From a virus: a stretch of 43,443 nt of DNA. The position numbers and the translations under genes are program-made. Below, in pieces: positions 8,212 to 39,316 of the stretch. The first letter of the stretch is position 1. Every line of letters begins with the position of its first letter. A model generated the notes under the pieces. It was not told the origin of the DNA. It ran no database searches and worked only from the letters and a program-made list of their open reading frames with translations. The DNA is taken from positions 1 through 43,443 of the IMG/VR virus record IMGVR_UViG_3300037042_005486. One strand, written 5' to 3'.

Positions 8212-9168
8212 CTATAAATCCATTTTCAATTTAAATGTATAACTATCTAATTCTCTTTTTCTTACAGGATTTGCTAATTTAGCAACACCTATTAAATTTT
8301 TTTGCTCATCATATATTGCTATTTTTGATATATAAGTTGTTTTATTAAAGTCAGGCTCTTCATCAACAAAGGAAGAGCTAGTCATGTTTTTTATTAATAA
8401 ACTACTGTTTTCTATATATCCATAACTACCAGTTATTATTTGTTGAGTTTGTCCATGTTCAATATATGTTGGATTGTTTGAATGATTTAATTCACCTTGA
8501 TGAGCGTGTGCTAACATGGTTATCGTTGGTATATAATTTATACCTTCAAAATCTAGAAGAAAACTAGAAGATGGGACTAAATTAACCTCTGATGAACCGG
8601 TATTCATAAAATACTTCCATGATGGTTCATAGAAAGAAGAATCAATTCCAAATCTATCGGTATAAGTTGGATGCAATGACCACGAGCCAGTTAATAATAT
8701 AAAGCCTTCTTTATATAAAACAACACCAGCAACACTTCCGGAACCATTACTTCCACTTGGTCCAACTTGTATTAATTCTCCATTCCTATTTATGTCTTCT
8801 AGTTCTGCTATAAGAGTTCCTGTTACGTACCATTTACAATTCACACTACCTTTGCGTATTGAAGAGCCATAAAAAATAGATGGTACAGATACAAGACTTA
8901 ATTCTTGTGTTTCTTTATCACCGAAAGATGAACTATAAGCGAAATGAGGGCTAGAATATATATAATAATCTAATGTATTTTTTAATGCCTTGATATAATC
9001 TCTGTATTGAAAATCATAAACATGATATCTAATAACATTTGCGACGTATGGATATTCACTTCCAGTTATAACATCGCCATATTGAAATTGGCTAAAGTTA
9101 TTTGCCGAAACTGTTTTAAAGTTATTAAGATTTCCGTCTTTTGTTATAAATTGTTTTGGTCTTGCCAT
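8212..9168 (-). CDS. Virion structural protein, paralogue of the next gene upstream
   Basis: This 318-residue protein is probably a baseplate or tail-surface structural component. It shares with the protein at 9241-10260 a region around NHSNNPTYI (NYSSNPTYL there) and a C-terminal pattern: TYISKIAIYDEQKNLIGVAK then LANPVRK, against SYVTSVGLYSADNELLAVAK then LSEPLKK. Both end in a short beta strand (FKLKMDL and LRVRLDY). The overall composition is beta-rich with many Ser, Gly and Tyr. The ATG lies only 6 bases after a strong hairpin (9175-9201) whose 3' arm contains the only AGG-like ribosome site, so expression may be limited or regulated. No known enzymatic motif is visible. Confidence 0.75.
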   Translation of the reverse strand: MARPKQFITKDGNLNNFKTVSANNFSQFQYGDVITGSEYPYVANVIRYHVYDFQYRDYIKALKNTLDYYIYSSPHFAYSSSFGDKETQELSLVSVPSIFYGSSIRKGSVNCKWYVTGTLIAELEDINRNGELIQVGPSGSNGSGSVAGVVLYKEGFILLTGSWSLHPTYTDRFGIDSSFYEPSWKYFMNTGSSEVNLVPSSSFLLDFEGINYIPTITMLAHAHQGELNHSNNPTYIEHGQTQQIITGSYGYIENSSLLIKNMTSSSFVDEEPDFNKTTYISKIAIYDEQKNLIGVAKLANPVRKRELDSYTFKLKMDL

Positions 9169-17954: not shown

Positions 17955-18998
17955 TTAGCATTTCTTGACTTCATCTTCATTATAAGATGGAGAATATAAT
18001 TCACCTGACGTCATTTCATTCATTCTTTTTTGCTGTGCGGCGTTTTGTTCATTGTATTCGGCACAATCATACATTGGATCATATAGCTTATTGTTATCTT
18101 TCATGTTATTAATTAATTGGCAAATAAGATTTTTTTCTATTTCATTATCAATCAATATATTAAAAAAATTTTCAACTCTAAATTGATCACCATCTTTTTG
18201 TCGTTGTAAAGAGAAACCTTCTTGCTCTTCTACAACTTGGGGATCCAATAATATTCCATTTTTATAATCTTCATAGGCTTGATCAAAATGTAATGGAATA
18301 TAATTTTCTTCACCAGTTGATTCGTTATTTTCACATATAAACATTTCTATGTCAAAATTTTTCATTTCATTTTCAACATTTTTTTCCAATATTTCAATCA
18401 ATAGATAATCTTCTTCTAGTGCCACCGATGTTCCATCTGAATATCTTGATATATAAATCACTTCTTCTGAAGTCGGTGCTTCGCTTCCAGCTCTTTTTTC
18501 TGATAATATATAATCTATATCCTTTAATTGTAGAAGAGGTGTTTTTATTAATGGACTTGAATCAAGTGAACCTGATTGCAACAACGTTGTTGATTCTATC
18601 TCGCCATTCAACATAGTAATATTGAGCGATGCAACTTTATTATCTCCAAGATAAGAAGTACCGATTCTATTATTTAAAACATGATGCTTATCTGTTGTTG
18701 GAATAAGTTTAAGAGAATCTAGAGTTTCCTTTCCAGATTTAATTAATTCCAAATTTTTCTTTACTTGTTCTTCTATCCCCGTGAAGACATATTGAACTTT
18801 TGGTCTTGGCACACTTTTTATTCTATCAACAGCTGTTCCATTATTTTCTTCTACGCCGGCGTATTTAGCATCATATATAATATCATCATCAAAGAAAGCA
18901 TAATATACTGGTTTTAATTTTCCTCGGGAAAGAAGATGTTTTCCATATTGAGTTAATTCAATTTCAACAACTTCTTCTTTTTGATTAAAAAATGTCAT
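17955..18998 (-). CDS. Virion protein with LTxxGxxLxxGK N-terminal module
   Basis: This 347-residue protein starts MTFFNQKEEVVEIELTQYGK then HLLSRGKLKPVYYAFFDDDI. The LTxxGxxLLxxGKxxxxxxAFxDDDIxY pattern is a short N-terminal module seen in several environmental T4-like virion proteins and echoed at 10279-11214. The remainder is acidic (EEDYLLIEILEKN, ESTGEENY) with helical segments; the last 50 residues are Asn/Glu/Gln-rich and end in KKC. The ATG overlaps the stop of the upstream 2129-residue gene by 4 bases (ATGA) with GGGAG just upstream, a strong sign of coupled translation and so of equal dosage. Probably a connector or adaptor between baseplate proteins; function is inferred. Confidence 0.75.
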   Translation of the reverse strand: MTFFNQKEEVVEIELTQYGKHLLSRGKLKPVYYAFFDDDIIYDAKYAGVEENNGTAVDRIKSVPRPKVQYVFTGIEEQVKKNLELIKSGKETLDSLKLIPTTDKHHVLNNRIGTSYLGDNKVASLNITMLNGEIESTTLLQSGSLDSSPLIKTPLLQLKDIDYILSEKRAGSEAPTSEEVIYISRYSDGTSVALEEDYLLIEILEKNVENEMKNFDIEMFICENNESTGEENYIPLHFDQAYEDYKNGILLDPQVVEEQEGFSLQRQKDGDQFRVENFFNILIDNEIEKNLICQLINNMKDNNKLYDPMYDCAEYNEQNAAQQKRMNEMTSGELYSPSYNEDEVKKC

Positions 18999-21900
18999 GT
19001 ATTATTGCTCCCTGAAATATTCACATATTCTATTTCTACATCTACTTTTGCTGTTTCTACGAGGGAACAATAATCATAAGGCCAATTAAAGCTATATGGT
19101 GAAGGTGGCTTACCAGCTTGGATAGAAGGGAAAAGACCATCATCACTCGAGTCAGCTGTCATCTTATAATAGTTTATTTCTGCTCGTTTTTTAGCTTTAA
19201 AGATCAGAAATTTGACATCACTTGGCAAACCTTGACCATGGAAGAAATCAAACTGCGTATTCTTGTGAGAAATAACGCTCTTTTCTCTTTCGGCACGTAT
19301 TGCTATTTTTGGCATTACACCTTGCCAAATATCAGCAAGATCTTGTTTGTCAAGCTTGCTTGTAAACTCAGCAATATACATAACAAATGGTTCTACAGAT
19401 TCATTCAACAAGAAATCAAAGTTTGGCGGCAATACGTATTTATTCATTAAGCCTATCATTCTACTGATACTTGTTTCTTGTATGTTGCCTACACCTCTTG
19501 AAAAGTCTGCCAAACTTACTGCTGGCTTATTGGCAAGAACATTTGTTTTTTGATAGTTGAATATATTTTGATTTATTTTTATAAAATTATGGCCTTCTAT
19601 TTCAACAGTATCGTTTACTGTTAGAGTAGAAAATCCACCACCAAACCTTATATTTTTTCCTGTTGATGCTCTTTCAACATATGGTATTATGATTATTGCT
19701 TCTGATATATCTCTTGAATCAGCAAGTTCACCTATCTTCTTTGATAGCTTATCGTTTGCTGATTGAAAACCACATGCCTGCAGTAAAGAACCGGTATTTG
19801 TCTCACCAAACTGTCTTGTATCTGGATTCAATACACTAACAAGTTCTCGTGGATAACTTTCACGAAGTTCAAGAAATATACCTTTATTGCCCTCTGGTAT
19901 CTCTCCATAACCACTCCACATTCCTCTACCAAAACCACTGGCAGTTGGAGGAGTATGTATAAATCCCGGTTCATTCTTTAACTTTAAATCTGTATTAGAT
20001 TGTGTCAGAATAGTTGTGGAAGTTATAAATTCTTGATTTGAGAAATCTAGAACGGGAACTTCCATTTTTGGTGAAATGACCCACTTTTTAATACCTGTAC
20101 TATTTGTTGCAGTTCCAACGAGATTTCTCAAACTTCTCGTCACGGTATTAGAAAAGTTTTGAGAAAGATTTTCAAGTTGAACTGTTTGCTGTCTATTTTC
20201 TATTTGACCTTTTATGGTCACAGAAGATGCAAGAGGCATTGCGATAGAAGAATATAAACTACCAGAAGCGTATATACTATTATTCATAAAACTAGTATTC
20301 ATGAACTGTATTTCTATATCTTCAAATATTTCATCAAGTGTGTATTTTTTTGTTATAGATGGTTTAAACGATATTCTTGCGATTGAATCTCCATAATAAT
20401 AAGGAGGAGCATATGTGCAATATGCCGGATCTCTTAGTGTTTCTGACAGTAAGAAATTCGTGTTTATTGCTGAAGCGTCAGCATTAGAACCAGACCAAAA
20501 TGCAGGTCCAAAATATCTGCCACTCATTCTACCAAAATTATCGGCCAACGAAGAAGAATGAGCTTCACACATCACGATATCATTTTTTCTCAAAATGATA
20601 TCCATATAGTATGTTTTATCGCTGTCAAAAGAAAGGAAATCTGAATCTGGTTTTGATATAAAAGTGTTTAGAACTGAATCTTTTAAGAAAAAATTTATAG
20701 TTTCTGCTAAAAAGTTATTAATACTGAGAGTGTACAGAGGTGAGCCCTCGCTCAATTTTTCGAAAAAACCTTGAAAATTATATGCACCAACTAAACCATA
20801 ATCACTAGCATCGTAACTAAAACCTATTTCTTTGTGTTTCATCATACGATTTTCTGAACTCTGATTTGATGAAGACAGAGGAATATTTTGCAAGTTTAGC
20901 AATGATTCAAAAGATATTTTATATTCAGGTTTTTTCAACAAAGGTACAATAAAAGGACTTCTTGGAACACTACCAGTAAATATACTCCAATCAACTGCAA
21001 TACCAGACTTTATTAGGTTGTAAAATATTCCAGGAGCATATAATGGTTCTAAAAATGCACTTTCTTTCATAAACTGTGTAAGTTTATCATTTTCTTCTCG
21101 GAACATATACTCGTCTAATGAACCTGTTAAAAGCAGTCCTCCTCCTATAGCATTTGTGTCTAAATAAGACTGCTTTAAATAATTGACAAGTTGCAGACTG
21201 CGATCTTGTGGGTAAAAACCGTTATAGGGAAGAAGTTTTTTGACTCCATTGACAATTATACTTATAGTATCTTCTTGCGCCATTTCGCTGTTGTCACTAT
21301 CAACAAGTTTGATATAACTAAACTGTAAATCGTCAACATATTTTTGTAATGTTATTTTTGCTATGTCTCCACTGTATTCCATAATGAGATTAGATATTTC
21401 ATCTGATATTTTGAATTCTGGTATTTTAGAATAACTAACCAAGTCATCGTTTGATAGCGCTTTTACATCAACATAATAATCTTCATAAGAATCGTACCAT
21501 GGATTTTTACCAGATATTTTTTCTGTTAATCTGTTTAAACCAAGATCGTGCGTATTATTATTATATACAAGTGTAGTTGTATCGGTAACGCCAATCCGAT
21601 CTACAATCAAAGTACAATGTTTGTAAAAATATGAAGGATAAGCTCTCAAAGAAGAAGGATCATTAGTTGACTGCAGCGGATACATACCAGACGCTAAAAC
21701 AGTATTATAATCATCATCACGACCTGTTAAAAGTGCATTTTTAAAAAAATATACCTCCGGAGTCTGGTTCGCTGGCATGGTGTAATAACCATAGCGAGCA
21801 GCACCGGCGAGATATCCATAAGAATGATATGTGAAAATTTGATTACTATTTAATTCTGCAGAGTTTTGATATGATAAGTCTAAAATTGATTCAAGTAGAG

Positions 21901-24900
21901 GACCAGGTCTATCATTTTTAATATATTCTATCGCACTACTTTCAGTAACATATTCAAGAGCGGCCATGCTTGGAGTTTGGAATGGCAAATTATAAACGCT
22001 TTCAACTTGTTCTCCAAGTGAAGTTATATAATTTCTGCGAGTCCTCATTCTATCTTCTTGACTATCTCTCCAGAACGCACGTTGAGTTCCAAGTTGACGA
22101 TCATAGCCATCAACACTAAAGCCCGGTTGTTCGGTCATGTAGTCGGTTCTCATCCTCGTTTCTTTTAATCCAGTGTCAGATAATTTTGGCAATATAGTTT
22201 CACTATATGTATAACCAACAAGTTTTTCTATTGGATTTTCATTTTCATCTACAGTTCCATTATAGTATTCTAATAATGTATCGTATATTTGTCTTTCTTT
22301 TTTATTTAAACCTAATACATCATTTAATTCTTTGTTTGCAAAATATTGTAAATTATTTGCATATGTATGCGTTATTTCAAAACCAACATTTTGATCGGTA
22401 GAATCTTTTAATATAAATCTATGTTTTAATGGTTTATTGTTTGCATAAACAGGGCTTTCTTTTATGTTTAATAATGTACCTTGTTTTCTGCTTCCTGGAA
22501 GAGTTATTCTTACTGGTATACCATTTATATTTCTAGTAATAACCCTTGATCCTTCTGGGATCAAAGTTGAAACAATATTTGTATTTTCAGTGGTCAACTT
22601 TCTTGTTATCGGATGTTCGTTATTTCTTATAAATTTCCAATTTGATGCCTGATATGGACCATTGAAATATGTTGAATAACTTATTATTCCGCTATTTTGT
22701 GGGCGGATATTTACAGAAGAAGTAAAGTTTACAAGTTCTACATCCTTATTCCCAACTTCATCTATTAGTGTTAAATTATCTTCATTTATTCTTGTTGAAT
22801 AAATGTGTATTGGAGTTGGTATATTTATATTATCAAACTTGTGCTCAATGTATTTCTTTGGCTGCTTTCCATATGCCGACTTGCTAACTTTGAAAATTTC
22901 ATTTACTTCTTTTTCGCTTAATACTTTCTGCCATACTGAAATTTCATCTATGGCTGAACTGTTTGCTTGACCATATCTTCCAGCGGAAATAATTAATTTT
23001 GATATATCAAGTTTTTTATACAACTGAGTTGTTTCTGTTACCAACGCACCATCAACATATATTTTTGTTACAGTAGTATTTTGTGGAGTTGATATCACAG
23101 AACCATTGAACGTCGTCATTCTTCTTATAGCAGTACTAACATCACTCACTAATGTTATGTTGTGCCACAAAGAATCATTTATCCGTTGCTTTATTAGGAT
23201 ATCATTATCTGCATCTGAACCATTCACATAAAGATAAGAACTTGTTTGGGAAAAAGCAGCTTTTAAATAATTATCAGATGCACTGCCACTGTAATTAATC
23301 AGATCAAAAATATTATTTAAAGAAAATTGATATATAAGAGAATCTGCACCCATATCTCCTATAACATACATTCTTGTGGTATCATCTGGCTTCACAAACA
23401 TTCCTCTTGGAATATTTAATTTATCTCCTATATTTTTACTAGTTACCAATGTTGCACCCAATAAGCTCCAAGCGTTTGGCAAATAATACATAAATATGTC
23501 ATCTTGAGAATCCAAAGTTTCATTTCTCAGAATATACATATAGCGTCCATCATGAGAAAAAGATATTCCCGTATGACTTCCAACTGGTGTCGTTGAAGCA
23601 ATCGCTACAGTTCTGACAAATACCGCTGTTGTAGCGTCCCAAGGTGTTAATAGGTCGTATTCTGTAGAAACATCGCCATCAGAACGCACTATAAACATTT
23701 TTGTTCCATCAGGAGATATAAATAAATCTTGTGGAATTGCTATGGCACCAAAACTAAATGTTGATGCAGCACCAACAGTTGAAATATCCCAAGCAGTACC
23801 TAAATTGTATTGTTTTAATGTCCTTGGACTATTATTGGAACCAACAACGTACATTCGTGTTCCATCTGATTTAAAAAACAAACCAGTTGGTACACCTTCA
23901 TCTAATGTTACTGACAAAGAACGAACAAATGTTTTTGAAGTTATATCCCAAGCTGTTGACAACGAATATTGATGCACAGAATCAGCTTGAACACCAATAA
24001 CAAATAATCGAACACCACTAGAATCAATAAACATTCCAGTCGGACCATTCTCTTGAGCTAGCACAGAAGATGAATCAATAAAATTTAAACTTTCTAAATT
24101 TCTTCCAATACTTGTATCTTCTGGAATATTAAGCCAAAAAGATAAACTAAAATCTTTTGATGATATATCGCTAGATATATCACTTGCATCAATGTAGAAA
24201 TCATTACTTGATGTAAAGTTGAAATATTTTCTATCTCTATACATGGTATTTGTATAGGTACTAACAAACATTTCATCTTTATCTATAGCGCCACTTATAC
24301 CAAGATGATCTCCAAACGCACCTGTTAATTCAAATGATAAATCATTAAAGGTACCATTTGAATTGTACAAACTTGATGTAGAATATGGAAGATTATAGCT
24401 TTGATATTCTATTGGTTGCTGACTACTTGATATAGAATCAGCAATCCATTTATATCTTAAATCTGTTGCAGGAATTGCATGTTGAACCCAGAAATTATCA
24501 TATCTTGAGCCAGTGGAGGGAGAACTTCCTGTGAATACAATTTTTTGTAATGTATTTCTATTAATCGCATGTATTGTTGTTGCAATCACAGAGCCAGTGC
24601 CTGGTAATAACTTGTAAGTACTACCAGAGTTGAATTGAGCAGAGTGTTGAGTTAATTGATTGTAATATGGCTGTCTAACTTTTATATTTCTTGTAGTTAG
24701 AGAATTATTAGGAGAATATTCTTCTCCTTCTCTATCAAGTGCTCCGCGAGAACTTTCTTCTCTACCACCAGGAGCATTAAATCTTTGAACAAAAGTTGTT
24801 TTATCTTTATATTGTTTTCCTGATGCGTCAATTCTTGTTATATCTGGAAGGGAGTAAATACTAGTTCCGGTTACAAATTGAGTGGTCAAGGAACCACTTG

Positions 24901-25384
24901 CTTCAAATCCATCAACAATTAAATTATTTGTTGCTCTGCGACCAACACTTTGAACGACCTGATAATTGTGTTCAAAATTTCCGGCTATGTTTCCCGAGGT
25001 TTGAATGTTAGAAATGTTTATAGGGGATTTTGCTGTGTTTCCACGGGTCAAAATCGCTCTTGGTTTATGAGCTCCGTTTAAATCTGGCCCATACACTTTT
25101 ATGGAATTTATAGAAGAAGAAATTATATATCCTTCTGGTCTATTATCAGAATTATCGGTTCCTTCATTTAATTTAACATGACGGTGTTGATTTCCGCCAA
25201 CATGTTGATTGGTGAATGGGCCTTGTAATGGAGAATTTTCTATACCACCATATTCATCTTTGTGGTGATTAACTATATCAATATTATATCCAACACTAGA
25301 AGTTAATTCTGCTGCATATCCTGTTGTTACAGAAGAACTTACAACAGCAAATGGAAGTTTGCCTCTTGTGTTAATATCAGTCAT
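18995..25384 (-). CDS. Giant virion protein: LamG domain with inserted beta-propeller
   Basis: This 2129-residue protein starts MTDINTRGKLPFAVVSSSVT with TAGGAG upstream. Residues 35-115 (IDIVNHHKDEYGGIENSPLQ then GPFTNQHVGGNQHRHV) form an N-terminal region I recall from big structural proteins of environmental T4-like phages. Residues about 385-440 and 700-835 are two halves of one LamG jelly roll: FSLSFWLNIPED, then LWHNITLVSD, KIYVDGALV and AIDEISVWQKVLSEKEVNE. Between them, at 441-698, sit five repeats of about 50 residues (PxGxFxxxDGTxMYVxG...YxLxxAWDI) typical of a beta-propeller. The remaining ~1300 residues are of unknown fold and end in a predicted helical region (LADIWQGVMPKIAIRAERE). 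Probably a long baseplate-attached adhesin or tail-spike-like protein. Confidence 0.8.
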   Translation of the reverse strand: MTDINTRGKLPFAVVSSSVTTGYAAELTSSVGYNIDIVNHHKDEYGGIENSPLQGPFTNQHVGGNQHRHVKLNEGTDNSDNRPEGYIISSSINSIKVYGPDLNGAHKPRAILTRGNTAKSPINISNIQTSGNIAGNFEHNYQVVQSVGRRATNNLIVDGFEASGSLTTQFVTGTSIYSLPDITRIDASGKQYKDKTTFVQRFNAPGGREESSRGALDREGEEYSPNNSLTTRNIKVRQPYYNQLTQHSAQFNSGSTYKLLPGTGSVIATTIHAINRNTLQKIVFTGSSPSTGSRYDNFWVQHAIPATDLRYKWIADSISSSQQPIEYQSYNLPYSTSSLYNSNGTFNDLSFELTGAFGDHLGISGAIDKDEMFVSTYTNTMYRDRKYFNFTSSNDFYIDASDISSDISSKDFSLSFWLNIPEDTSIGRNLESLNFIDSSSVLAQENGPTGMFIDSSGVRLFVIGVQADSVHQYSLSTAWDITSKTFVRSLSVTLDEGVPTGLFFKSDGTRMYVVGSNNSPRTLKQYNLGTAWDISTVGAASTFSFGAIAIPQDLFISPDGTKMFIVRSDGDVSTEYDLLTPWDATTAVFVRTVAIASTTPVGSHTGISFSHDGRYMYILRNETLDSQDDIFMYYLPNAWSLLGATLVTSKNIGDKLNIPRGMFVKPDDTTRMYVIGDMGADSLIYQFSLNNIFDLINYSGSASDNYLKAAFSQTSSYLYVNGSDADNDILIKQRINDSLWHNITLVSDVSTAIRRMTTFNGSVISTPQNTTVTKIYVDGALVTETTQLYKKLDISKLIISAGRYGQANSSAIDEISVWQKVLSEKEVNEIFKVSKSAYGKQPKKYIEHKFDNINIPTPIHIYSTRINEDNLTLIDEVGNKDVELVNFTSSVNIRPQNSGIISYSTYFNGPYQASNWKFIRNNEHPITRKLTTENTNIVSTLIPEGSRVITRNINGIPVRITLPGSRKQGTLLNIKESPVYANNKPLKHRFILKDSTDQNVGFEITHTYANNLQYFANKELNDVLGLNKKERQIYDTLLEYYNGTVDENENPIEKLVGYTYSETILPKLSDTGLKETRMRTDYMTEQPGFSVDGYDRQLGTQRAFWRDSQEDRMRTRRNYITSLGEQVESVYNLPFQTPSMAALEYVTESSAIEYIKNDRPGPLLESILDLSYQNSAELNSNQIFTYHSYGYLAGAARYGYYTMPANQTPEVYFFKNALLTGRDDDYNTVLASGMYPLQSTNDPSSLRAYPSYFYKHCTLIVDRIGVTDTTTLVYNNNTHDLGLNRLTEKISGKNPWYDSYEDYYVDVKALSNDDLVSYSKIPEFKISDEISNLIMEYSGDIAKITLQKYVDDLQFSYIKLVDSDNSEMAQEDTISIIVNGVKKLLPYNGFYPQDRSLQLVNYLKQSYLDTNAIGGGLLLTGSLDEYMFREENDKLTQFMKESAFLEPLYAPGIFYNLIKSGIAVDWSIFTGSVPRSPFIVPLLKKPEYKISFESLLNLQNIPLSSSNQSSENRMMKHKEIGFSYDASDYGLVGAYNFQGFFEKLSEGSPLYTLSINNFLAETINFFLKDSVLNTFISKPDSDFLSFDSDKTYYMDIILRKNDIVMCEAHSSSLADNFGRMSGRYFGPAFWSGSNADASAINTNFLLSETLRDPAYCTYAPPYYYGDSIARISFKPSITKKYTLDEIFEDIEIQFMNTSFMNNSIYASGSLYSSIAMPLASSVTIKGQIENRQQTVQLENLSQNFSNTVTRSLRNLVGTATNSTGIKKWVISPKMEVPVLDFSNQEFITSTTILTQSNTDLKLKNEPGFIHTPPTASGFGRGMWSGYGEIPEGNKGIFLELRESYPRELVSVLNPDTRQFGETNTGSLLQACGFQSANDKLSKKIGELADSRDISEAIIIIPYVERASTGKNIRFGGGFSTLTVNDTVEIEGHNFIKINQNIFNYQKTNVLANKPAVSLADFSRGVGNIQETSISRMIGLMNKYVLPPNFDFLLNESVEPFVMYIAEFTSKLDKQDLADIWQGVMPKIAIRAEREKSVISHKNTQFDFFHGQGLPSDVKFLIFKAKKRAEINYYKMTADSSDDGLFPSIQAGKPPSPYSFNWPYDYCSLVETAKVDVEIEYVNISGSNNT
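23291..24064 (-). repeat. Five ~50-residue beta-propeller repeats within the 2129-residue protein
   Basis: This coding segment (residues about 441-698) holds five repeats centred on SGVRLFVIG, SDGTRMYVVG, PDGTKMFIVR, HDGRYMYILR and DDTTRMYVIG. Each is followed by a YxLxxAWDI-like strand in most copies (YSLSTAWDI, YNLGTAWDI, YDLLTPWDA). Spacing of about 50 residues fits propeller blades. A LamG half lies on each side. Confidence 0.75.
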
Positions 25385-29085: not shown

Positions 29086-30512
29086 TATTTATCTATCCTA
29101 AATTTAAAAGTTTCTTTTACTTCGTAGAAAGAATTATTATATTCAAATCCAAAAAATACTTTATAAGCATATCCTGGCTCAAATAATTTCATATCTAAAT
29201 CAAAATAATTTCCTTCTCTATCATATGAAGTTAGGGTGTGTTTATAACTTCCTGTTCCATATGCAATCACTTCATAATTATCGGCTATTCTAATAACTCT
29301 ATAATATAAATTTTCTATATTTGTTTTTTCAGGTTCATATGCAGCAACGTGATAAATATTAGAATCCCATAACTTATTTTTTACTTCAACTCTCATTCTT
29401 GCAAATTCAGAATTTTTATAAGATTGTTTCAGTTGAGGCATCGTCAATATATATTCTGGGATTTCCTTGTCGTCTGTAGCATCATAAGTATTTGTATATA
29501 TTACGGAGCCCGTATATAGTTGTGTTCCACTTAAGGTTGACCAAACATCATATAAATATTCGTAAGTTCCACTAATACCCACAGAAGCAGTATAGGTTCC
29601 CTCCGAATAATATCCTCCAGTTATGGAAGTAGCGGATGTTCCCAACAAAACTAATGGAGGCCCAATTGGTCCACTTGTTAGACTTCCGGAATAAAGACTA
29701 ACCAGCAATATTCCGGTTGATACAGATGGTATGTTTTTGAAATTACCTCTAACACTATTGATTAAAAATAATGTATTTAAATTTTCTTCAGATGGAAGCA
29801 AATCACTGCTTAAGTAAAATGAATTTCTTCTATCCTTGATTGAAGAATTGCTTCTTACTTCTATAATTGGTCTTTTATAAAAGAACTGACTTCTTCTGGC
29901 AAAGAATTTTTTAGTATAATAAGATTCTGTATCTGCCTCAAGCAAAGAAGATAAAGATATTAACAAACCATTATTTGGAGTAATGTTTGAGATCCAATTC
30001 TCCACTAAACCAGTTATATCAAGCTCTAAATCGTCAGAAGCATTTTCAATTAAATATTCTATTGAAGAAGATGGATATACATCTCCTCCTTGACTTATCC
30101 AAGCAGAGTTAGAAGAAGCACTAATCCAATTAGCAACACCAATATCAGAATATCCTTCCATGTCCAACCCAATGCCTTCTTGCCATGCTCCGGAGACGGG
30201 AGAAATTGAAACAGTTATATTATCTGGGGTTGAATCGCTATTTGAAGCATTACTTAATTTTAATATAAACTGACAGCTACCACTTTCAGAAATTATTTTA
30301 TTATTTCTATCTGATATTATATCTGATATTGGAAATTGAATCAAGATTCTTGACTTTTCATATGAACTGCTTGTTACTTGTCCATATATAGAAAATATCT
30401 CAAGAACATCTGACGCTCCCATGTTTGATAAGGTGCCACGGGTTGTCTGATTTTGCTTAAAAGCATCAGTTATTGTTGTATCTTTTTCTGCTATATATCT
30501 TTTAATAGACAT
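29085..30512 (-). CDS. DNRLRE-like structural protein
   Basis: I set the start at ATG 30512 (MSIKRYIAEKDTTITDAF), with GGAGA upstream; a TTG at 30515 is less likely. The ATG overlaps the gp6 stop by 1 base (TGATG). The ~475-residue product has the N-terminal pattern of the DNRLRE family: YIAEKDTTI, then SRILIQFPISDI, PVSGAWQEG, the tract IGVANWISASSNSAW, LDITGLVENWI and GLLISLS. DNRLRE modules are beta-sandwich domains of extracellular and virion proteins. The remaining ~250 residues hold beta-rich segments (TYTASVGISGTYEYLYDVWS) that look immunoglobulin-like. Adjacent gp6 and LamG proteins place it on the baseplate. Ligand is unknown. Confidence 0.75.
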   Translation of the reverse strand: MSIKRYIAEKDTTITDAFKQNQTTRGTLSNMGASDVLEIFSIYGQVTSSSYEKSRILIQFPISDIISDRNNKIISESGSCQFILKLSNASNSDSTPDNITVSISPVSGAWQEGIGLDMEGYSDIGVANWISASSNSAWISQGGDVYPSSSIEYLIENASDDLELDITGLVENWISNITPNNGLLISLSSLLEADTESYYTKKFFARRSQFFYKRPIIEVRSNSSIKDRRNSFYLSSDLLPSEENLNTLFLINSVRGNFKNIPSVSTGILLVSLYSGSLTSGPIGPPLVLLGTSATSITGGYYSEGTYTASVGISGTYEYLYDVWSTLSGTQLYTGSVIYTNTYDATDDKEIPEYILTMPQLKQSYKNSEFARMRVEVKNKLWDSNIYHVAAYEPEKTNIENLYYRVIRIADNYEVIAYGTGSYKHTLTSYDREGNYFDLDMKLFEPGYAYKVFFGFEYNNSFYEVKETFKFRIDK

Positions 30513-32314
30513 CAACTAATTTCTCCATATATATCAGAAACTGGGAATCGTATTTCAAAAATAATATTTTTTGGAGCCTCTATATATCTTCCGTCTCTAG
30601 ACATAAATCTATTTACATCAAAAAATACATCAGAATAATTTAATCCATTTTTCTGTTCTACTTTTACATTCTTAACGTCATTTACGCCTTTTACTTTTTT
30701 AAGTATATTATAAATATCAGTTATAAAAAATGCTTCTCCAATAAATTTAACTTTAGAATATTCATTTTGAAGAGCAGATACACAATCTCTAAGAACTTGG
30801 GAATTATCCGCTTCCAAATCAGAGACAACACTAAATTTAATTGATAAATTAACTATTTTTGCATCCAAAATGTCTATAGTGTCATTTATCATTTTATTTT
30901 TATTCAGCCAAACTTTTACATTTTCTTTAATTGACTGATTTGAGTTTGTTAGTTTACCAGTAGAATCTTCCGACACTACATATATGTTTATATTTCTTTT
31001 AAATGAATCATAATCTCTAACTATAGATGCTCTCTTGATACTTCCAAATTCTGGTGGCATATTATAAAGAAGAGCTTCATAATCTTTTTCTGTCACTGCT
31101 CTGTTTTGAGAACCAAAGGTATTATATACTTTAAATTTTAATTCTTCAGATGTAACAAGCGGAGTATCGCCAACTATTGGCTCTTCATTGTTTACTTCAA
31201 GAGAAGAGCGCACAGAATTTATTTTATTTGCATCTAAATTTCTTGAATCACCAAAATCAAATAAAGAACTAGCAACTGAATTTAATGTTCCGGCGCCAGT
31301 GTTGACGTTGTCAGAACTATTGGCTCTCGCAACGATTCTTAAAGTAGTATTTGATGGAACCACGCCTAGTTTATCGGATTTTATTAAATTATTTGGATCA
31401 AAATCTCTATCAGAAATATAATTTTTTCCATATAATTCTAATGTAACGGCAGAAGGATCTATCAGTTCTGAGTTATAAGTTTCGCTTGAAGCATCTCCAG
31501 TTCCAAACTGTAAAAAGGTTTTATCCTTTTCTCTTGTTGTGACAAATCTTCTAGGAACAGAAAATGGTTTTAATATACTTTTTACTTCTGCGTTTTCATC
31601 ATTATTATCACGATTTAAAATGGAACGATAAACAACATCTTGACTCAAATAATCAACTTCGTAATATTCATTTCCATCTAAGTCTATTACGGAAATAATC
31701 TCTGTTAGATAATCAATATTAACTGGTATTTTTAAAAATCTCTTGTATTCACCAACATCATAAAATGTTTGAGTTAGATATCCAGATTGTACTTTGCCAT
31801 GTGCCTTAATTGCATAAGTTAGCGGGAGGCCAGTTGTTTCGTTTACTGTGCCAACGACAATTTCATTGTCATCTCTATTGAAATATACATCTTCAGCTAG
31901 AGAAAAAGAAACACCAGTTTTATTTTTAAATGTACTATTTTTTTTCAAAATAGGAGCATAATTTAAATCAGGACCATCACCAAGAAGATTTGCAGGAACA
32001 AGGATGAAAAATGTCGCGATACCGTGTGATGAAGGATTTTCTGTATATTTAAATCCAAATGGCTTTGATAATTTAAGAATATTGTCAAATTCTGATGCTG
32101 TATCTAAAAATGTTTCATTAGCTGCATAATCTAAATAAAAAGATAAATTATCACCAACATATGCAACAGTATCAAGCATCAGACTTCCAAAACCTACTTC
32201 GCTAAAATCTTTATAAGTATCTGGATAATATTTTTTTGCATGCTCTACAAGAGCGTCTTTTATTGACTGAAAGTCTCTAGCCAAATAATCAATTGGTATA
32301 TTTTTCTTGGGCAT
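30512..32314 (-). CDS. gp6: Baseplate wedge protein, T4 gp6/baseplate J-like
   Basis: This 600-residue protein matches the T4 gp6 / baseplate assembly J-like family, the wedge component forming the inner baseplate ring and driving sheath contraction. Evidence is the N-terminus MPKKNIPIDYLARDFQSIKD, SEVGFGSLMLDTVAYVGDNL then SFYLDYAANETFLDTA and ILKLSKPFGFK at residues 40-90. VTEKDYEALLYNMPPEFGSI then KRASIVRD falls in the second half, with a C-terminal INDTIDILDAKIVNLSIKFS region. The length is close to T4 gp6 (660). AGAGGA is well placed and a CTATTTATA element lies 15 bases before the ATG. gp25 follows the canonical neighbour order just upstream. Identity is strong. Confidence 0.93.
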   Translation of the reverse strand: MPKKNIPIDYLARDFQSIKDALVEHAKKYYPDTYKDFSEVGFGSLMLDTVAYVGDNLSFYLDYAANETFLDTASEFDNILKLSKPFGFKYTENPSSHGIATFFILVPANLLGDGPDLNYAPILKKNSTFKNKTGVSFSLAEDVYFNRDDNEIVVGTVNETTGLPLTYAIKAHGKVQSGYLTQTFYDVGEYKRFLKIPVNIDYLTEIISVIDLDGNEYYEVDYLSQDVVYRSILNRDNNDENAEVKSILKPFSVPRRFVTTREKDKTFLQFGTGDASSETYNSELIDPSAVTLELYGKNYISDRDFDPNNLIKSDKLGVVPSNTTLRIVARANSSDNVNTGAGTLNSVASSLFDFGDSRNLDANKINSVRSSLEVNNEEPIVGDTPLVTSEELKFKVYNTFGSQNRAVTEKDYEALLYNMPPEFGSIKRASIVRDYDSFKRNINIYVVSEDSTGKLTNSNQSIKENVKVWLNKNKMINDTIDILDAKIVNLSIKFSVVSDLEADNSQVLRDCVSALQNEYSKVKFIGEAFFITDIYNILKKVKGVNDVKNVKVEQKNGLNYSDVFFDVNRFMSRDGRYIEAPKNIIFEIRFPVSDIYGEIS

Positions 32315-32342: not shown

Positions 32343-32732
32343 TCATGAGGTTATAATATTACCATTTGATTCTATAGTTAAATTTACATCTGTTCCTAGT
32401 GGAATGATAAAATATGTTATAGTAATACTCAATAAAGAGCCATCAATATTAGTATTACCATAATCAATATTTTTAATAGCTATATATGGTGCATAAATTT
32501 GAATTTGATTTTTTAGTCTTTGTTCAAAATTTAATTTTAAAAAAGGACTATAATTTTCAAACAATAATCTCTTTATTCCTACTCCAAAATTACCATCCAT
32601 TATTCTTTCACCTGGATTGGTAAGGAGTAACATTAAAAAATTTTGACTACTTAATGTCTTTAAGTCGCTTATTAAAGTATAGCCTTGTTCAGTGCCCAAC
32701 TTTAACGGTAATTTTGGTCCATATCCAGCCAT
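32343..32732 (-). CDS. gp25: Baseplate wedge protein, gp25/GPW family
   Basis: This small protein belongs to the gp25/GPW family, which shares the fold of lysozyme-like baseplate proteins and nucleates sheath assembly. Evidence is NFLMLLLTNPGERIMDGNFG then VGIKRLLFE, the family core LLxTxPGERxxxPxFGxGIxxLLFE, followed by RLKNQIQIYAPYIAIKNIDY. I place the start at ATG 32732 (MAGYGPKLPLKLG), with TAGGA 9 bases upstream, giving 129 residues, close to T4 gp25 (132). A longer reading from GTG at 32759 would overlap the upstream stop and add nine unsupported residues. Next to gp6, as in most contractile-tail phages. Confidence 0.93.
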   Translation of the reverse strand: MAGYGPKLPLKLGTEQGYTLISDLKTLSSQNFLMLLLTNPGERIMDGNFGVGIKRLLFENYSPFLKLNFEQRLKNQIQIYAPYIAIKNIDYGNTNIDGSLLSITITYFIIPLGTDVNLTIESNGNIITS

Positions 32733-32755
32733 ATAATAATTTCCTACAATAATTA

Positions 32756-35700
32756 TCACACACCATATTTTTTATAGCCAGATAAGTCAAAACAATAATT
32801 TTTTAGTTCCTCTTTTATACTATCATTTTCTATATTTAAATCTAAATTTTCTGAGAATTCTAAAGATAACAACAACAAATCGGCACCCAATAAAACCATG
32901 CCTGGTATAGTTAATGGAGGCCCAACACCTATACCTACCGGTGGAACTCCAAAAACTGTTATTGGTAATTGAGCCATTGAATATATCGCTAAAGGACTTA
33001 GTGCTAATGGTAACTCAGAAGGTACAGGTGGACCACCAAAAGGATTTGGTATTTGAGATGCCAAACTTAGTGATAGTTTTACTGCGTTTCTCAATATTAA
33101 AGCAAGACTTATGTTTGGGTCTGTCATCTGACAGTAATACTGAAGAACATAAATCGCAGCTTTTAATGCTGATTTGGCAGCTAATGGAGCGTTAAATTCC
33201 TTAAAATATTCTGTCGTAGACATTCTTTCTCTAATATCTTCTAGTTCACTATTATTGTAGATTGAAGTAAACTTTAAATGAATAGAATTCATTATTTGCT
33301 TTCTAATGCTACGGAAAGGAGTAACGAATGTATCTCCAGAAAGTATTGAAATACTTGAAAGTATGGTTAGATTAGAAAGTAAATTTTCATTTGTAAATAT
33401 AGAATAGAAACTTTTTAACTCCTCGCTACAAGAAATTTTTAATTTTAATAAATTAGTCAATTCATTTGACTGTTCTATTTTTAATTTTGGTAAAAATTCC
33501 AACATATCTGATACAGTTTTTATATTAACTGTAGATACATTTATAGATTCTTTTATAATTGGAAATGCATTTATTACTCCAAATTTTCTCTTTCCATCTT
33601 CTGTTGGCTCTCCAATAAACGGAATTATATATGTTTTTTCATACTCATCTTTTCTAATTCTAGACGAAGGTTCTAATCCGATATCTATTAAAAAATCTTC
33701 TAAATAAAACTTGGCTTTTCCTTGAGAGCATAAAGAATCAAAATTTTCCCTAATTGTTTTACTTTGTTCATATTGAATTGATGTCTGTTCTTTTAAATCT
33801 ATATCTGGTATGTATACGAGTCTCATTCCATATTTTATTTCTTCTGAAAAATACTGATTTAAATTTTTATTTTTTTCAGGTGCGACACTCAATAAATCTT
33901 GAAATTTTGAAAATGGTTGTGCGCCATAACAATTTAGCTGCTTTTGTTTCAAAGCTAAATCAAATGTATTCCAACCTTCTGTTTTGACTTCTGGAACATT
34001 TACATAATGTTCTATTATCAAATTTGGACCTGGTTTTAATTTTTCTTTCTGAAGTTCTGTAAAGAGTCTTTTATCGCTGTCGACAGTGGTTACTTCTTGC
34101 AATTCAGTTTTTATTAAAAGCTCAGGAATTAACATTGATAAAAAGTCTTTATCTTCTACATTTTGCTGCTCATCACTACACTGCTCTGATAGAGAGTTTT
34201 TTATTTTTTCATTTGTAGAAGTTAAATAAGACAATTTATCAAATATTACAATCATTTCATTGTAGCAAATGTTTCTTAATTGTAATATTAATATTTTATT
34301 ATATTTTTCTTTTAATTCTGATTTTATACAAGAAATTTGATTTTCAACTTTTTTCTTGTATTGCTTATCTTGCTCGTCTAATGGACTTTCTGTGTATAAT
34401 TTTCCTAAATAGGAATTCATTATATCCATATCTTCTTCAAGCAAGGATATTTCAGTTTTAAGTTTTTTTATTTCTTTAAAAAGCTTACTATTTTCTGGTT
34501 TGTTTAATTCTTCAGAAAATATAAAACTATGTATATAATTTATATTATTTTGAGTTAATTGAATTAAACTATCTTTATTTAAAGAATTAAACTTATAATT
34601 TATTTCATTATATAATGTTTGTGCCACATAAGTAGGCAACATTAAATCATCAATTAATTTTTTATTATACTTAAAAACTCTTAGTGGAAAAATAGCTCTC
34701 ATGCAAACTTCCACACAAGCTGTTCTTATTAAGCTTATGTATAACCCGTCTATTATGCCAAACTTTAAATAGTTATCATCATCTTTCAGCATTTGTTCAA
34801 GAGTTTTTGTATCTACTATATCATTTTTTCTTTTATCTATTATTTGAGAAATAAATTGCTCTAATTCATATTTTCCAAATAATCCAGGATCTATTTTTAG
34901 ATCTTTTTGTTTTTTTGTTGGCTTTGGACAAAAATTGATATATTTCATTGGCGTATCAATATTGGGGCTCACCATTGGAGGAAGAGAGTTATTCTGCATC
35001 GCCAAAGACAATCCTGGAAATACCGAGTCTAGTCCGTCTTTAATTCCTGTAATATACTTTTCTTTTTGTAAAGAATCTAGATTGATAGGTTGTAACAATC
35101 CATCTTTCGTAATAGAATTAGCTATTTTTTCATATATTAAGGACAAAAAAGTATTATAAGAATCTGATGTATATTCAGCAAATTTTTTATCAAAAGCAAC
35201 TCTAACCGGTTGTTGTAAATTTGAATATTCTTGAATTATGCTGCTTTTTAGTATTTCTTTTAATCTTTCTTTTGTGTCTAGAGTTTCTTGATAGATTGAA
35301 TTTATATCAACATTTTCGTTATTTATTTCAAAATTAAATTTAACTATATTTTGGTTATTGACATTTCCTTCGTATAATTTTATTGTATTTTTGTTTTTAG
35401 AAAGAGTGTTTTCAATTTTCCAACAACTATCATTAAAAGAATGAAGAGCAAATTGAGAATTAGTTGTACTTGAATATCCTTTTGTACCGGTCAAAGATAG
35501 AGAAAGAGTATCGGTATCAGAATTAATAGACAGATTTTTAGAAGATTTATTAAAATTTTCAACAAATAAGCCGCCATATACAAATTTTTGCTCTTCTATT
35601 TCTATTGTATCTGGAGCTGTACCTGCTACGTATCCACCTTTATTAATTAAATCGTTGTATTCTGGATTTTCATATTCTTTTGGATCTTCAGATGATTCTT

Positions 35701-38700
35701 GTTTTAAGAATTTTTTTACTTCTCTTTTAACTGGTTTTTTAAGAACTAAATTAGAATAAACTTGGTTGCATCCATCTTTGAAATTATTTGCAATAATTTT
35801 AAAATTAATATCTACAATTTCTGAAGTTGCTTTTTCAACTGCTGAAATACTTTTTCCATTTGGCAATCTACCAATCAATAATGGCTTGAAAACTTTATCT
35901 TCTATTTTATTTTTTAATTCACCTGGAGAACAGCTTAAAAGATCTTGTATTAAATTTCTGTAAATATCATCAGAACCTACAACAAAAGGAACACTTGCTG
36001 CTATCGCTGTTGCTGCTTGATCTGCTGGAGTGTTTTTTGGTTCATAAATAAATTCAGGAGTTGTTGGATCTAGGCATTGCAAATTACTTTGATTTATATT
36101 ATAAGAAGAATAATAACTAGACATTGCAACCATCTCTTCTCTTACTAAATCCAATCCGGATGCTTTAGCTAGATAACTAAAAATTCCAGATAATCCACCT
36201 GGGACTAAAAGATATGTTAATTCTGAATGTTGTTTTCTGACGTATTCATCTGCTTGTCTTAGATCTTCTTCATTTGGACTTCCTGAAATCATTCTAATAA
36301 AAGCATCTGGCTGCATAATTTTACACAACTCAGAAATCAACTCAACTAAAGATTGTTTTATTTCTAATTCAGTTACAGAAGAGCTTTTTGTTGTACTCAA
36401 TATCTGTTCAGCATTATGACTGAACAATTGTTTTGTTTTAGATTTTGCTGTCAGATCAGTATTTCCAAAAACACCGAAATCTAAATTTATATTTAATGCA
36501 GTAAATTCTTCGGCTTTTAACGGGGGATTTAAAGATTTGGCTATGTTTATAAATGATTTATGATATTCAATTGGATCTATTTGTGGATTTTTATTTACAA
36601 AATCGTCTAAATCAAACTTACCTCTTCCAATCTGATTTAATGCCGATAAGGTAGCACCGGTTACACTTCCATTTGCGTCTCCAGTAAGAGCCGCACTTAT
36701 AAGACCCTTTATCCCTCCGCAAGTCAATAATTCATTTAATATTTTTAATATAAAAGCTACGATTGAATCAAGAATGATTTTTACAACCGTTAAATCTAGG
36801 CTTAATTTTACTTCTTGAAATAAATCTACTGTTGGAAATTTTGGTAATTGTAGAAAATTAAACGTCTCAAAACTAATGTTAAATAAATCTACAATACTAC
36901 ACAATATATCAACATTCAACCCATATCTTTCCATGAGATCTAGAAAATCATCAATCATCTTCATCTCTTCTGGGTTCATTTCTTTGCGGGCCATGGCCCT
37001 ATCTTCATCACTTTGAGATACGGATTCTTGTTCTGATTTTAGGTCACGATATTCTTTCAATTTATTTTCATATTGCTGCTGTAATGTATTTGTTGGATCG
37101 CCATTTTTGGATACTTTTTGATCTGCAATATCTAATGCTTTTCCCGGTTCTGTTCTTTTATCTAACTCGGCAAAAGTTATTTGCTTTCTTTCGTTATTTT
37201 TTATTGCATTTTCTAAGTCTCTCAACTCATCAAGAAGTTTCTTTTCTCTTTCATCTTTTATATTATTTATCTTAAATTCTATTAGTGCATTATAAAATTC
37301 AGTATAAACACTTTCGGGAAAGGCTTTCTTTAAAATGTTTTCTAATTCCGAGAATCTGAATCCTCTCAAGATGTCTCTGCAATTTCCTGCTTTTGGTAAA
37401 TAACAAGTTTGAAATTCTCTCAACAAGCAAGATAAATTAGTTCTAGCAAAAACTATATCTTGTAATTGATTTAGACTTTCAATACCCTGATTGGTGGTTA
37501 AATCACTTAGTTTTTTTATTATCTGTTCTAAAGAAATAGTATCTGCAAAAGAATCTTTTCTTGCTTCATATGGCCCATAAAAACCATTATTTAATAAGGT
37601 TTTTCTAAATAATTCATTTGAATTAGGATCTCTTATTAATTTAGATGACGGCGTATCTGCGCTGGATTCATAATAATATTTGCTATGCTGTAAAATTATT
37701 CTTTCGGCCTTATCACGACTTAAATTTTCTCTTGTTGAATCGTAAAAGGAGAGAGCATCTGGATATATATTTGGTAAAAAATATAAACTTGGAAAATTAA
37801 TAAAGTTAAAAGCTTTAGGATTTGAGTCTACAAGATTTTTATTTTTTGAAAACGGAGAAGCATCTTTAATAACATTATCATTTTGATATTTTTGCTTATT
37901 AATTTCAGTATCTGGTTGTAAAGATTGCGGAGTTGGACAATAAAACGGATCTATTTCAATTATATTATTATCAATATAATCTAAATCTGATAAAATTGCT
38001 AATATTGTAGGATTAAAGAAATCAAAAGAATTCTGTTCTCCAATTATATCTGCTCCGCCAATTACTGCCACGAACTTATTTGAAGTGTCCATTGAACTAT
38101 AAGGACTACCAAGTTTTAAAAATTGCTTATTAGTGAACTCAATTTTTAAAGGAGATAAAGCAGTTTTTTGTTCTTCAATAATTGATTCTTCTGTATCTCT
38201 TAAGTAAGTTAATCTAAAAAATAGATTTTCTTTTTTTAAATTTTTAGATTCAGAAGCAGAGTATATTTTTTCTTCAAGAAAATTATAACTTGTATATTTT
38301 GATTTAAAATCATTTAAAAAACTAAGAGCATTAATTTTTTCTTGTAATGCTGAACTCAGTTCTTTTCTTATGATGAAATCTAACAATTTCATTCTTAATT
38401 GAACAATTATTTTAAAATCATATTCTTGCTTTTTTGAAATTGAATCGTTATATGCTTTTTCTCCAATAACATTTATGATTTCTTGTAATTGGTATCCAGA
38501 ATCAACAAGCGAAGGAAAGGTACCAAATGGAAATATTTCTTTTCTAGATGGGGTGCTATCCGTGTATGATTCAATTAAATCTTCGGCATTTTTTAATCCA
38601 GGGATTTTTTCTGGTAATGAGTATAAATATTCTTGTTTTCCATTTTGACTTCCAGAAATACTTCCGGAAGTATTTGTAGAAATAGAATTTTTTATATAAA

Positions 38701-39316
38701 GTACTTTTTCTTTTACTTCTCTAACATATTCTTCAACAGATACTTCATAATTTGGATTTAGCGAAGGATCTAAATTTATATATGTATCGGCTAGTGAATC
38801 TAATTTAGTTAATAAAAAAGTCATATTGCTGTAATCATAAACAGCAGCTGAAACGTTTTTTAAATAAGTCTTTATTTCTTCTTCCTCAAAAATATCTATT
38901 TTTAAACTTTTATATGGCTTGGTCTCTAATAATTGTAAAATTGTGTTATTTGGATCTGTATTTGTGGCAGCAAATGCATCAAACTTTGAACCAAAATCGT
39001 CTATTGGTTCAGCGATAATTAAGTCTGAATTTGTTACTAACCCTTGCTTTATTAAGTTTTCTTTTGTTTCAGAAAATCTTTGTAAATAAACTTTTTTAAC
39101 AAGAATTGATAAACTTTCTTTATATTTTCTTTTATCTAATGAAGATACAATAGAATCGTAGCTTTGCTGTGGATTGATAAATTTTTTACCATCATCATTC
39201 AAGTCTATAGAACAATTTTTTAAATATTTTACTAATTTATTTACTTTTTTGTCAATAGTAGATAAATCAAGTTCAAAGCTTGTGGAAATTATATTTTTTT
39301 GCGCTGTTGTTCTCAT
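32756..39316 (-). CDS. Giant 2186-residue virion protein, baseplate hub region
   Basis: This is the largest gene in the window and fits no family I can name. It starts at ATG 39316 one base after the upstream stop, with no clear ribosome site, so coupling to the preceding gene is likely. The N-terminal ~150 residues are helical. A charged coiled coil spans about 690-775 (ERKQITFAELDKRTEPGKAL to LKEYRDLKSEQESVS). A hydrophobic stretch lies near 830-880 (SLDLTVVKIILDSIVAFILK then ILNELLTCGGIKGLI). A second coiled coil is at ~1610-1675. A Pro/Gly-rich hydrophobic patch lies near 2090-2153 (VFGVPPVGIGVGPPLTIPGM then VLLGADLLLLSLE). The hydrophobic parts could be membrane-active during DNA delivery. 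Position between hub and wedge genes suggests a hub-associated or tape-measure-like role. Confidence 0.72.
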   Translation of the reverse strand: MRTTAQKNIISTSFELDLSTIDKKVNKLVKYLKNCSIDLNDDGKKFINPQQSYDSIVSSLDKRKYKESLSILVKKVYLQRFSETKENLIKQGLVTNSDLIIAEPIDDFGSKFDAFAATNTDPNNTILQLLETKPYKSLKIDIFEEEEIKTYLKNVSAAVYDYSNMTFLLTKLDSLADTYINLDPSLNPNYEVSVEEYVREVKEKVLYIKNSISTNTSGSISGSQNGKQEYLYSLPEKIPGLKNAEDLIESYTDSTPSRKEIFPFGTFPSLVDSGYQLQEIINVIGEKAYNDSISKKQEYDFKIIVQLRMKLLDFIIRKELSSALQEKINALSFLNDFKSKYTSYNFLEEKIYSASESKNLKKENLFFRLTYLRDTEESIIEEQKTALSPLKIEFTNKQFLKLGSPYSSMDTSNKFVAVIGGADIIGEQNSFDFFNPTILAILSDLDYIDNNIIEIDPFYCPTPQSLQPDTEINKQKYQNDNVIKDASPFSKNKNLVDSNPKAFNFINFPSLYFLPNIYPDALSFYDSTRENLSRDKAERIILQHSKYYYESSADTPSSKLIRDPNSNELFRKTLLNNGFYGPYEARKDSFADTISLEQIIKKLSDLTTNQGIESLNQLQDIVFARTNLSCLLREFQTCYLPKAGNCRDILRGFRFSELENILKKAFPESVYTEFYNALIEFKINNIKDEREKKLLDELRDLENAIKNNERKQITFAELDKRTEPGKALDIADQKVSKNGDPTNTLQQQYENKLKEYRDLKSEQESVSQSDEDRAMARKEMNPEEMKMIDDFLDLMERYGLNVDILCSIVDLFNISFETFNFLQLPKFPTVDLFQEVKLSLDLTVVKIILDSIVAFILKILNELLTCGGIKGLISAALTGDANGSVTGATLSALNQIGRGKFDLDDFVNKNPQIDPIEYHKSFINIAKSLNPPLKAEEFTALNINLDFGVFGNTDLTAKSKTKQLFSHNAEQILSTTKSSSVTELEIKQSLVELISELCKIMQPDAFIRMISGSPNEEDLRQADEYVRKQHSELTYLLVPGGLSGIFSYLAKASGLDLVREEMVAMSSYYSSYNINQSNLQCLDPTTPEFIYEPKNTPADQAATAIAASVPFVVGSDDIYRNLIQDLLSCSPGELKNKIEDKVFKPLLIGRLPNGKSISAVEKATSEIVDINFKIIANNFKDGCNQVYSNLVLKKPVKREVKKFLKQESSEDPKEYENPEYNDLINKGGYVAGTAPDTIEIEEQKFVYGGLFVENFNKSSKNLSINSDTDTLSLSLTGTKGYSSTTNSQFALHSFNDSCWKIENTLSKNKNTIKLYEGNVNNQNIVKFNFEINNENVDINSIYQETLDTKERLKEILKSSIIQEYSNLQQPVRVAFDKKFAEYTSDSYNTFLSLIYEKIANSITKDGLLQPINLDSLQKEKYITGIKDGLDSVFPGLSLAMQNNSLPPMVSPNIDTPMKYINFCPKPTKKQKDLKIDPGLFGKYELEQFISQIIDKRKNDIVDTKTLEQMLKDDDNYLKFGIIDGLYISLIRTACVEVCMRAIFPLRVFKYNKKLIDDLMLPTYVAQTLYNEINYKFNSLNKDSLIQLTQNNINYIHSFIFSEELNKPENSKLFKEIKKLKTEISLLEEDMDIMNSYLGKLYTESPLDEQDKQYKKKVENQISCIKSELKEKYNKILILQLRNICYNEMIVIFDKLSYLTSTNEKIKNSLSEQCSDEQQNVEDKDFLSMLIPELLIKTELQEVTTVDSDKRLFTELQKEKLKPGPNLIIEHYVNVPEVKTEGWNTFDLALKQKQLNCYGAQPFSKFQDLLSVAPEKNKNLNQYFSEEIKYGMRLVYIPDIDLKEQTSIQYEQSKTIRENFDSLCSQGKAKFYLEDFLIDIGLEPSSRIRKDEYEKTYIIPFIGEPTEDGKRKFGVINAFPIIKESINVSTVNIKTVSDMLEFLPKLKIEQSNELTNLLKLKISCSEELKSFYSIFTNENLLSNLTILSSISILSGDTFVTPFRSIRKQIMNSIHLKFTSIYNNSELEDIRERMSTTEYFKEFNAPLAAKSALKAAIYVLQYYCQMTDPNISLALILRNAVKLSLSLASQIPNPFGGPPVPSELPLALSPLAIYSMAQLPITVFGVPPVGIGVGPPLTIPGMVLLGADLLLLSLEFSENLDLNIENDSIKEELKNYCFDLSGYKKYGV

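Follow-up and report, generated by a model that had tools for sequence, protein, structure and literature searches.

Gene context of a 2129-residue baseplate-region protein

The window, the whole stretch of DNA that was analysed, is a virus record of 43,443 bases. The feature under study sits within a single open frame of the window, at positions 18995-25384 on the minus strand, which encodes a 2129-residue protein termed here P0001. The open frame, the full-length relatives (L002-L037) and the gene order mark P0001 as a probable baseplate-region structural protein. Relatives were found at 36 loci in a search of viral contigs. The C-terminal part of P0001, residues 1271-2129 (18998-21574, minus strand), forms a conserved scaffold with about 44 invariant columns in a 25-row alignment. 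Comparison of this scaffold with solved structures gave no relative and only a chance match to Rab-18.

In the direction of transcription, P0001 is the last of a series consisting of a gp25-like gene, a gp6-like gene, a 476-residue gene, a 1228-residue gene and P0001 itself, and this order is kept in most relatives. The gp25-like gene (138 amino acids; 32343-32759, minus strand) matches the baseplate wedge family phrog_261 with an E value of 4e-17 and is named gp25 from its size and position. The gp6-like gene (600 amino acids; 30512-32314, minus strand) is assigned to the baseplate wedge through phrog_10646 and phrog_6 and the baseplate wedge protein of Flavobacterium phage immuto. The 1228-residue gene directly upstream of P0001 (25399-29085, minus strand) has a LamG domain of its own at residues 175-343 (Pfam, E 2.9e-10). 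It is separated from P0001 by 14 bases in the window. In many relatives, for example L008, L010-L028 (L011 and L025 among them) and others, the 1228-residue protein and the P0001 homologue are fused into a single open reading frame of about 3000-3900 residues.

In gene order, the place of P0001 corresponds to that of gp7 in T4-type baseplate clusters. No sequence match links it to T4 gp7 or to any named baseplate family, and P0001, its C-terminal region and the 1228-residue neighbour have no match to a named PHROG. A baseplate role is likely because, in most relatives, the gene comes after those for the gp25- and gp6-like baseplate proteins, and P0001 is likely to be a large subunit of the baseplate region in a phage with a contractile tail. 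The initial annotation had called P0001 a virion protein; synteny with the baseplate genes speaks for this and is its sole support.

Other open frames of the window lie near this cluster or resemble tail components. A 2186-residue protein encoded at 32756-39316 adjoins the baseplate genes and has no Pfam or PHROG match. The frames at 3102-4598 and 5766-7922 have in common a C-terminal domain of about 100 residues (phrog_21978), perhaps a tail-fibre C-terminal module. Near the structural cluster, at 42141-42902, is a gene resembling late sigma transcription factors (phrog_234, E 4e-06).

A LamG domain divided by a propeller

The LamG domain of P0001 consists of two separated parts. The first, residues 381-428 (24101-24244, minus strand), ends with the strand FSLSFWLN and is 57-66% identical to the unbroken LamG domain of two relatives, L003 and L004. 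The second, residues 690-840 (22865-23317, minus strand), includes a C-terminal helix, and was delimited by profile matches and by a LamG-rich structure model. Alone, the second part matches Laminin_G_3 with an E value of 2e-07; a Pfam search with only the first part has no hit to this profile. The intact segment of residues 370-850 scores 31.2 bits, its best stretch covering only positions 90-151 of the Laminin_G_3 profile. When residues 381-423 are joined to 687-837, at a joining point picked from the alignment to L003, the match to Laminin_G_3 (PF13385) is continuous over positions 4-151 of 151, with 46.7 bits against a cut-off of 27.6 bits and an E value of 5e-12. The full-profile match is obtained only once the insert is removed. 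The initial annotation had proposed a LamG-like pattern split over two stretches, and the end-to-end match of the joined halves bears this out. The motifs that it named, FSLSFWLNIPED (residues 412-423), LWHNITLVSD, KIYVDGALV and AIDEISVWQK, are all present.

Between the two parts is a predicted five-bladed beta-propeller, residues ~429-689 (23318-24100, minus strand), a segment that is absent in L003 and L004. Five repeats of 51-55 residues were aligned in it, and these begin at residues 448, 499, 551, 604 and 659. On the minus strand they correspond to residues 448-498 (23891-24043), 499-550 (23735-23890), 551-603 (23576-23734), 604-658 (23411-23575) and 659-688 (23321-23410), and their consensus approximates P-x-G-(M/L)-F...DG-x-(K/R)-M-(Y/F)-(V/I)...Y-x-L-x-T-x-W-D. 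Searched alone against profiles, the insert matches PD40 at 23.3 bits, above the cut-off of 20.9, and a phmmer comparison relates it to the YVTN propeller of the archaeal surface-layer protein 1l0q (E 1.3e-06). The five propeller-type repeats of about 50 residues described initially are thus recovered. On these comparisons, the pattern seen in P0001 is beyond chance. The interruption itself stands, with shifted boundaries: it had been placed at nucleotides 23291-24064 (residues 441-698), with LamG resuming at residue 700, and the insert is now put at about 429-689 with a restart of LamG near 690.

Two AlphaFold2 models of residues 370-850 were made, model 1 with a propeller-rich alignment (A4) and model 2 with a LamG-rich alignment (A6). 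In model 1 the insert is predicted at a pLDDT of about 80-98. It has 20 strands, of which one comprises residues 434-440 (24065-24085, minus strand; strand E65-71 of the model) and the other 19 fall into five groups, in the order expected of five blades. As read from this strand order, the strand of residues 434-440 would close the ring by joining the last blade. The best solved match to model 1 (VIA-align) is the host-recognition device of phage phi11, 5efv, with Z 18.1 over 238 residues at 3.8 A; NHL domains rank next, along with 6iab, the P68 tail fibre (Z 17.3). The PDB matches are a mixture of binding and enzymatic propellers. The prediction of a closed propeller with five blades for the insert is thus a highly confident one. 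The LamG part of model 1 is poor, and unreliable because A4 held only three LamG relatives.

In model 2 the situation is reversed: LamG is improved and the propeller, which alignment A6 itself gaps, is poor. The LamG parts have pLDDT values mostly of 56-95; in the second part these range from 38 to 95 and are mostly above 70 past residue 729. The best matches are ConA-type jelly rolls (Z 12.3-13.5, 157-177 residues aligned) that run over model positions ~3-474. Because these matches span the full range of the model, both LamG halves contribute to one domain with the middle looped out, and the halves are predicted to form one ConA-like jelly roll. The LamG of model 2 also matches the binding domains of clostridial neurotoxins. 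These matches are confined to the lectin-like jelly-roll subdomain of the neurotoxins, and nothing points to a toxin function.

Neither of the two models has both domains confident, each fold being confident in a different one. The initial expectation from structure prediction is accordingly realized for the propeller blades (model 1) and for the two halves within one jelly roll (model 2), and not as a single joint model. Separate LamG halves, or residues 441-698 devoid of propeller blades, were looked for as contrary outcomes and neither was found.

Empty sites, divergence and rarity of the nested arrangement

The relatives of P0001 display the same site in its uninterrupted form. L003 and L004, respectively 68% and 63% identical to P0001, have an unbroken LamG domain at this position with no propeller. 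Residues 428 and 695 of P0001 correspond to nearly adjacent residues in L003 (837/840) and L004 (842/845), with two residues between them, and the LamG sequence reads across the empty site as ...SFWVNFPNS-ASNGEKTLLVYSGS.... The unbroken domain of L003 matches Laminin_G_3 at 53.8 bits (E 3e-14) over profile positions 4-150 of 151. More distant relatives, L005 (33%) and L008 (30%), also have LamG at the site and no propeller. In L007 and L009 (51-53% identical) neither module is present, and 545 residues are reduced to 33-34. Neither LamG nor the propeller was detected at the site in most other relatives. Both are present in L002 and L006, two contigs of identical sequence here.

Three natural states thus occur at one site as judged from the alignments: nothing, LamG, and LamG with a propeller inside. 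At the level of sequence, the nesting of the propeller in the LamG domain of P0001 is proved by these relatives. That the insertion falls in an early LamG loop, as first suggested, is confirmed by the empty sites of L003 and L004, by the match of the joined halves and by the two structure predictions.

Insertions are also seen elsewhere in the same protein. FG-GAP_2 (integrin-type) propeller repeats are located at about 8478-9797 of L003, at a position corresponding to residues ~177-190 of P0001, and at about 8772-10151 of L004, corresponding to residues ~283-295. L002 has an extra insert of about 100 residues at residue ~176 (about 8448-8897 of the contig), which has no Pfam match.

Sequence divergence rises from scaffold to LamG to propeller. 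Identity to relatives is 63-93% in the scaffold and 38-66% in LamG; the propeller is 31% identical or absent. Between P0001 and L002, the scaffold is 63-93%, LamG 46-47% and the propeller 31% identical; for five neighbouring genes (p138, gp6-like, p476, p1228 and p347), identity to L002 is 81-90%. Such a gradient is the pattern expected for exposed, exchangeable recognition modules, and weaker constraint can equally lie behind the faster divergence. The propellers of the window and of L002 are each closer to propellers of unrelated open reading frames than to one another. The two may have been acquired independently, but divergence between copies of one strongly conserved repeat would give the same picture.

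The nested arrangement is rare in the material searched. A total of 303 loci, which include viral contigs and 28 bacterial loci, the majority of them from SAR11 single cells, were translated and searched with profiles of the P0001-type propeller and of these LamG domains. Only five of 223 open reading frames with the propeller also have LamG. Three of the five are nested: those of the window, of L002 and of L155, the last being the copy of L002 on the second contig. The remaining two are both from L075 and have LamG and propeller side by side. In this sample, then, nesting is found only in P0001 and one relative (on two contigs), by a LamG profile that can miss divergent domains. Related propellers of the cultured phages CRP-9, ICBM2 and S-SKS1 are likewise not within a LamG. 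No relevant literature was found on LamG together with a propeller in phages, which, coverage being partial, is weak evidence of absence. Propeller repeats of the P0001 type are also carried by L128-L154, whose contigs are attributed to single-cell genomes of SAR11 (Pelagibacteraceae).

Related proteins and possible roles of the nested modules

The closest structural parallels to the insert are two phage proteins. The receptor-binding protein Gp45 of the Staphylococcus aureus phage phi11 (5efv), a host-recognition protein, has a five-bladed propeller, the fold predicted for the P0001 insert, and together with the P68 tail fibre (6iab) it is the top structural match, at 9-11% identity over the aligned residues. 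For the phi11 propeller a role as GlcNAc-binding or receptor site has been proposed; the GlcNAc site was modelled, as soaking and co-crystallisation failed (PMC4901313). Unlike P0001, the phi11 protein is a separate homotrimer with stem, platform and tower, and its propeller is outside any lectin fold (PMC4901313). The resemblance of P0001 to the phi11 type is a fold match of the propeller alone, at 9% identity.

Sequence relatives of the propeller are found in marine phages. In Synechococcus phage S-SKS1, the wedge protein at the gp7 position, downstream of gp6, has a propeller of the P0001 family (27% identity, E 3e-20). The propeller occupies residues 1130-1380 of the open reading frame, and residues 3-1120, directly before it, match a baseplate wedge PHROG. 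The S-SKS1 protein differs from P0001 in that no LamG was found around its propeller, and P0001 for its part has no match to wedge PHROGs. The S-SKS1 locus (L123, 596-7458) is an unannotated gp7-like wedge region after gp6, in two frames of 710 and 1601 codons, with the propeller near its end. Proteins of other marine phages and SAR11 genomes (L038-L117, L127-L154 and Roseobacter phage CRP-9) contain homologous repeats of about 50 residues with 22-42% identity. These propellers, unlike that of P0001, are alone or in tandem, with LamG beside them only in L075 and never nested.

The nearest nested lectin-propeller protein found is the Vibrio cholerae sialidase (1w0p; Asp-box propeller type 2), which combines a lectin-like jelly roll with a propeller by domain insertion and is nested the opposite way (PMC2716378). 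The sialidase is an enzyme, unrelated to phage baseplates in role, and its propeller blades are parted by the inserted lectin; in P0001 the propeller sits within the lectin fold. Modular phage adhesins are known, and the propeller nested in LamG is a new variant of them.

P0001 is probably a large baseplate-region subunit with a lineage-optional LamG domain and a propeller in a LamG loop, its modules reaching outward to bind the host and alter the adsorption range. Some lineages carry the LamG (ConA-like) domain at one surface site of the scaffold. In the phage of the window, a predicted five-bladed propeller has entered the loop after the LamG strand FSLSFWLN. Its first and last strands are predicted to be neighbours in the blade that closes the ring, and the propeller could thus occupy the loop and leave the jelly roll unbroken. 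The stacked modules may extend outward and bind glycans or proteins of the host surface, and their gain, loss and divergence would alter the adsorption range. Sequence comparison establishes the nesting, the empty sites and a divergence that increases from scaffold through LamG to propeller, and the two folds are predicted by the models; receptor binding by the modules is inferred. The combined surface-binding head proposed initially, here as an adsorption head, is a reasonable inference.

An explanation that is rather unlikely, though the best of the alternatives, accepts the nesting and takes the modules to be structural decorations or assembly interfaces that act as spacers, subunit contacts or stabilizers, with no part in host binding. 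The gene lies among baseplate genes, and propellers and LamG folds are frequent mediators of protein-protein contacts, both of which would suit such a role. However, both modules are dispensable, many relatives having neither, and no other part of P0001 diverges as much; a function in variable recognition accounts for this better than one in conserved assembly.

It is improbable that the propeller is an enzyme, of a lactonase or glycan hydrolase-like type, acting to trim the surface of the host while LamG binds carbohydrate for it, in the manner of sialidases. Weak similarity to SGL, Lactonase and Arylesterase and the combination of lectin and propeller domains in sialidases (PMC2716378) are in its favour, but in P0001 the three Pfam hits are below the cut-offs and extend over no more than a portion of one or two blades, and the PDB matches include binding as well as enzymatic propellers. 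That the LamG halves are unrelated or decayed pieces around an ordinary tandem propeller, with no joint jelly roll, is very improbable: the first half alone falls below Laminin_G_3 and LamG confidence is low in model 1, but it is contradicted by the relatives with an empty site, by the unbroken profile match of the joined halves and by jelly-roll matches that take in both of them.

P0001 is a case, proven by sequence, in which domains of a phage baseplate-region protein are nested at two levels, and its natural intermediates have no LamG, LamG only, or LamG with the propeller. Entry into loops by domains with nearby ends is a route by which recognition folds could be added with the virion scaffold undisturbed. 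The intermediates are also matched natural constructs, available for testing whether stacked modules alter receptor choice. For annotation, a propeller insertion explains why LamG domains of this kind are missed or scored as half domains.

A more tentative extension, which falls short of an even chance, is that the LamG loop has served repeatedly for docking, with different propellers exchanged into it by lineage, and that other sites of the scaffold take FG-GAP propellers. The baseplate protein would then resemble a pegboard on which recognition modules are swapped and stacked and host range is changed. This reading is drawn from the propellers of the window and L002, 31% identical beside a scaffold of 63-93%, and from the FG-GAP propellers in L003 and L004.
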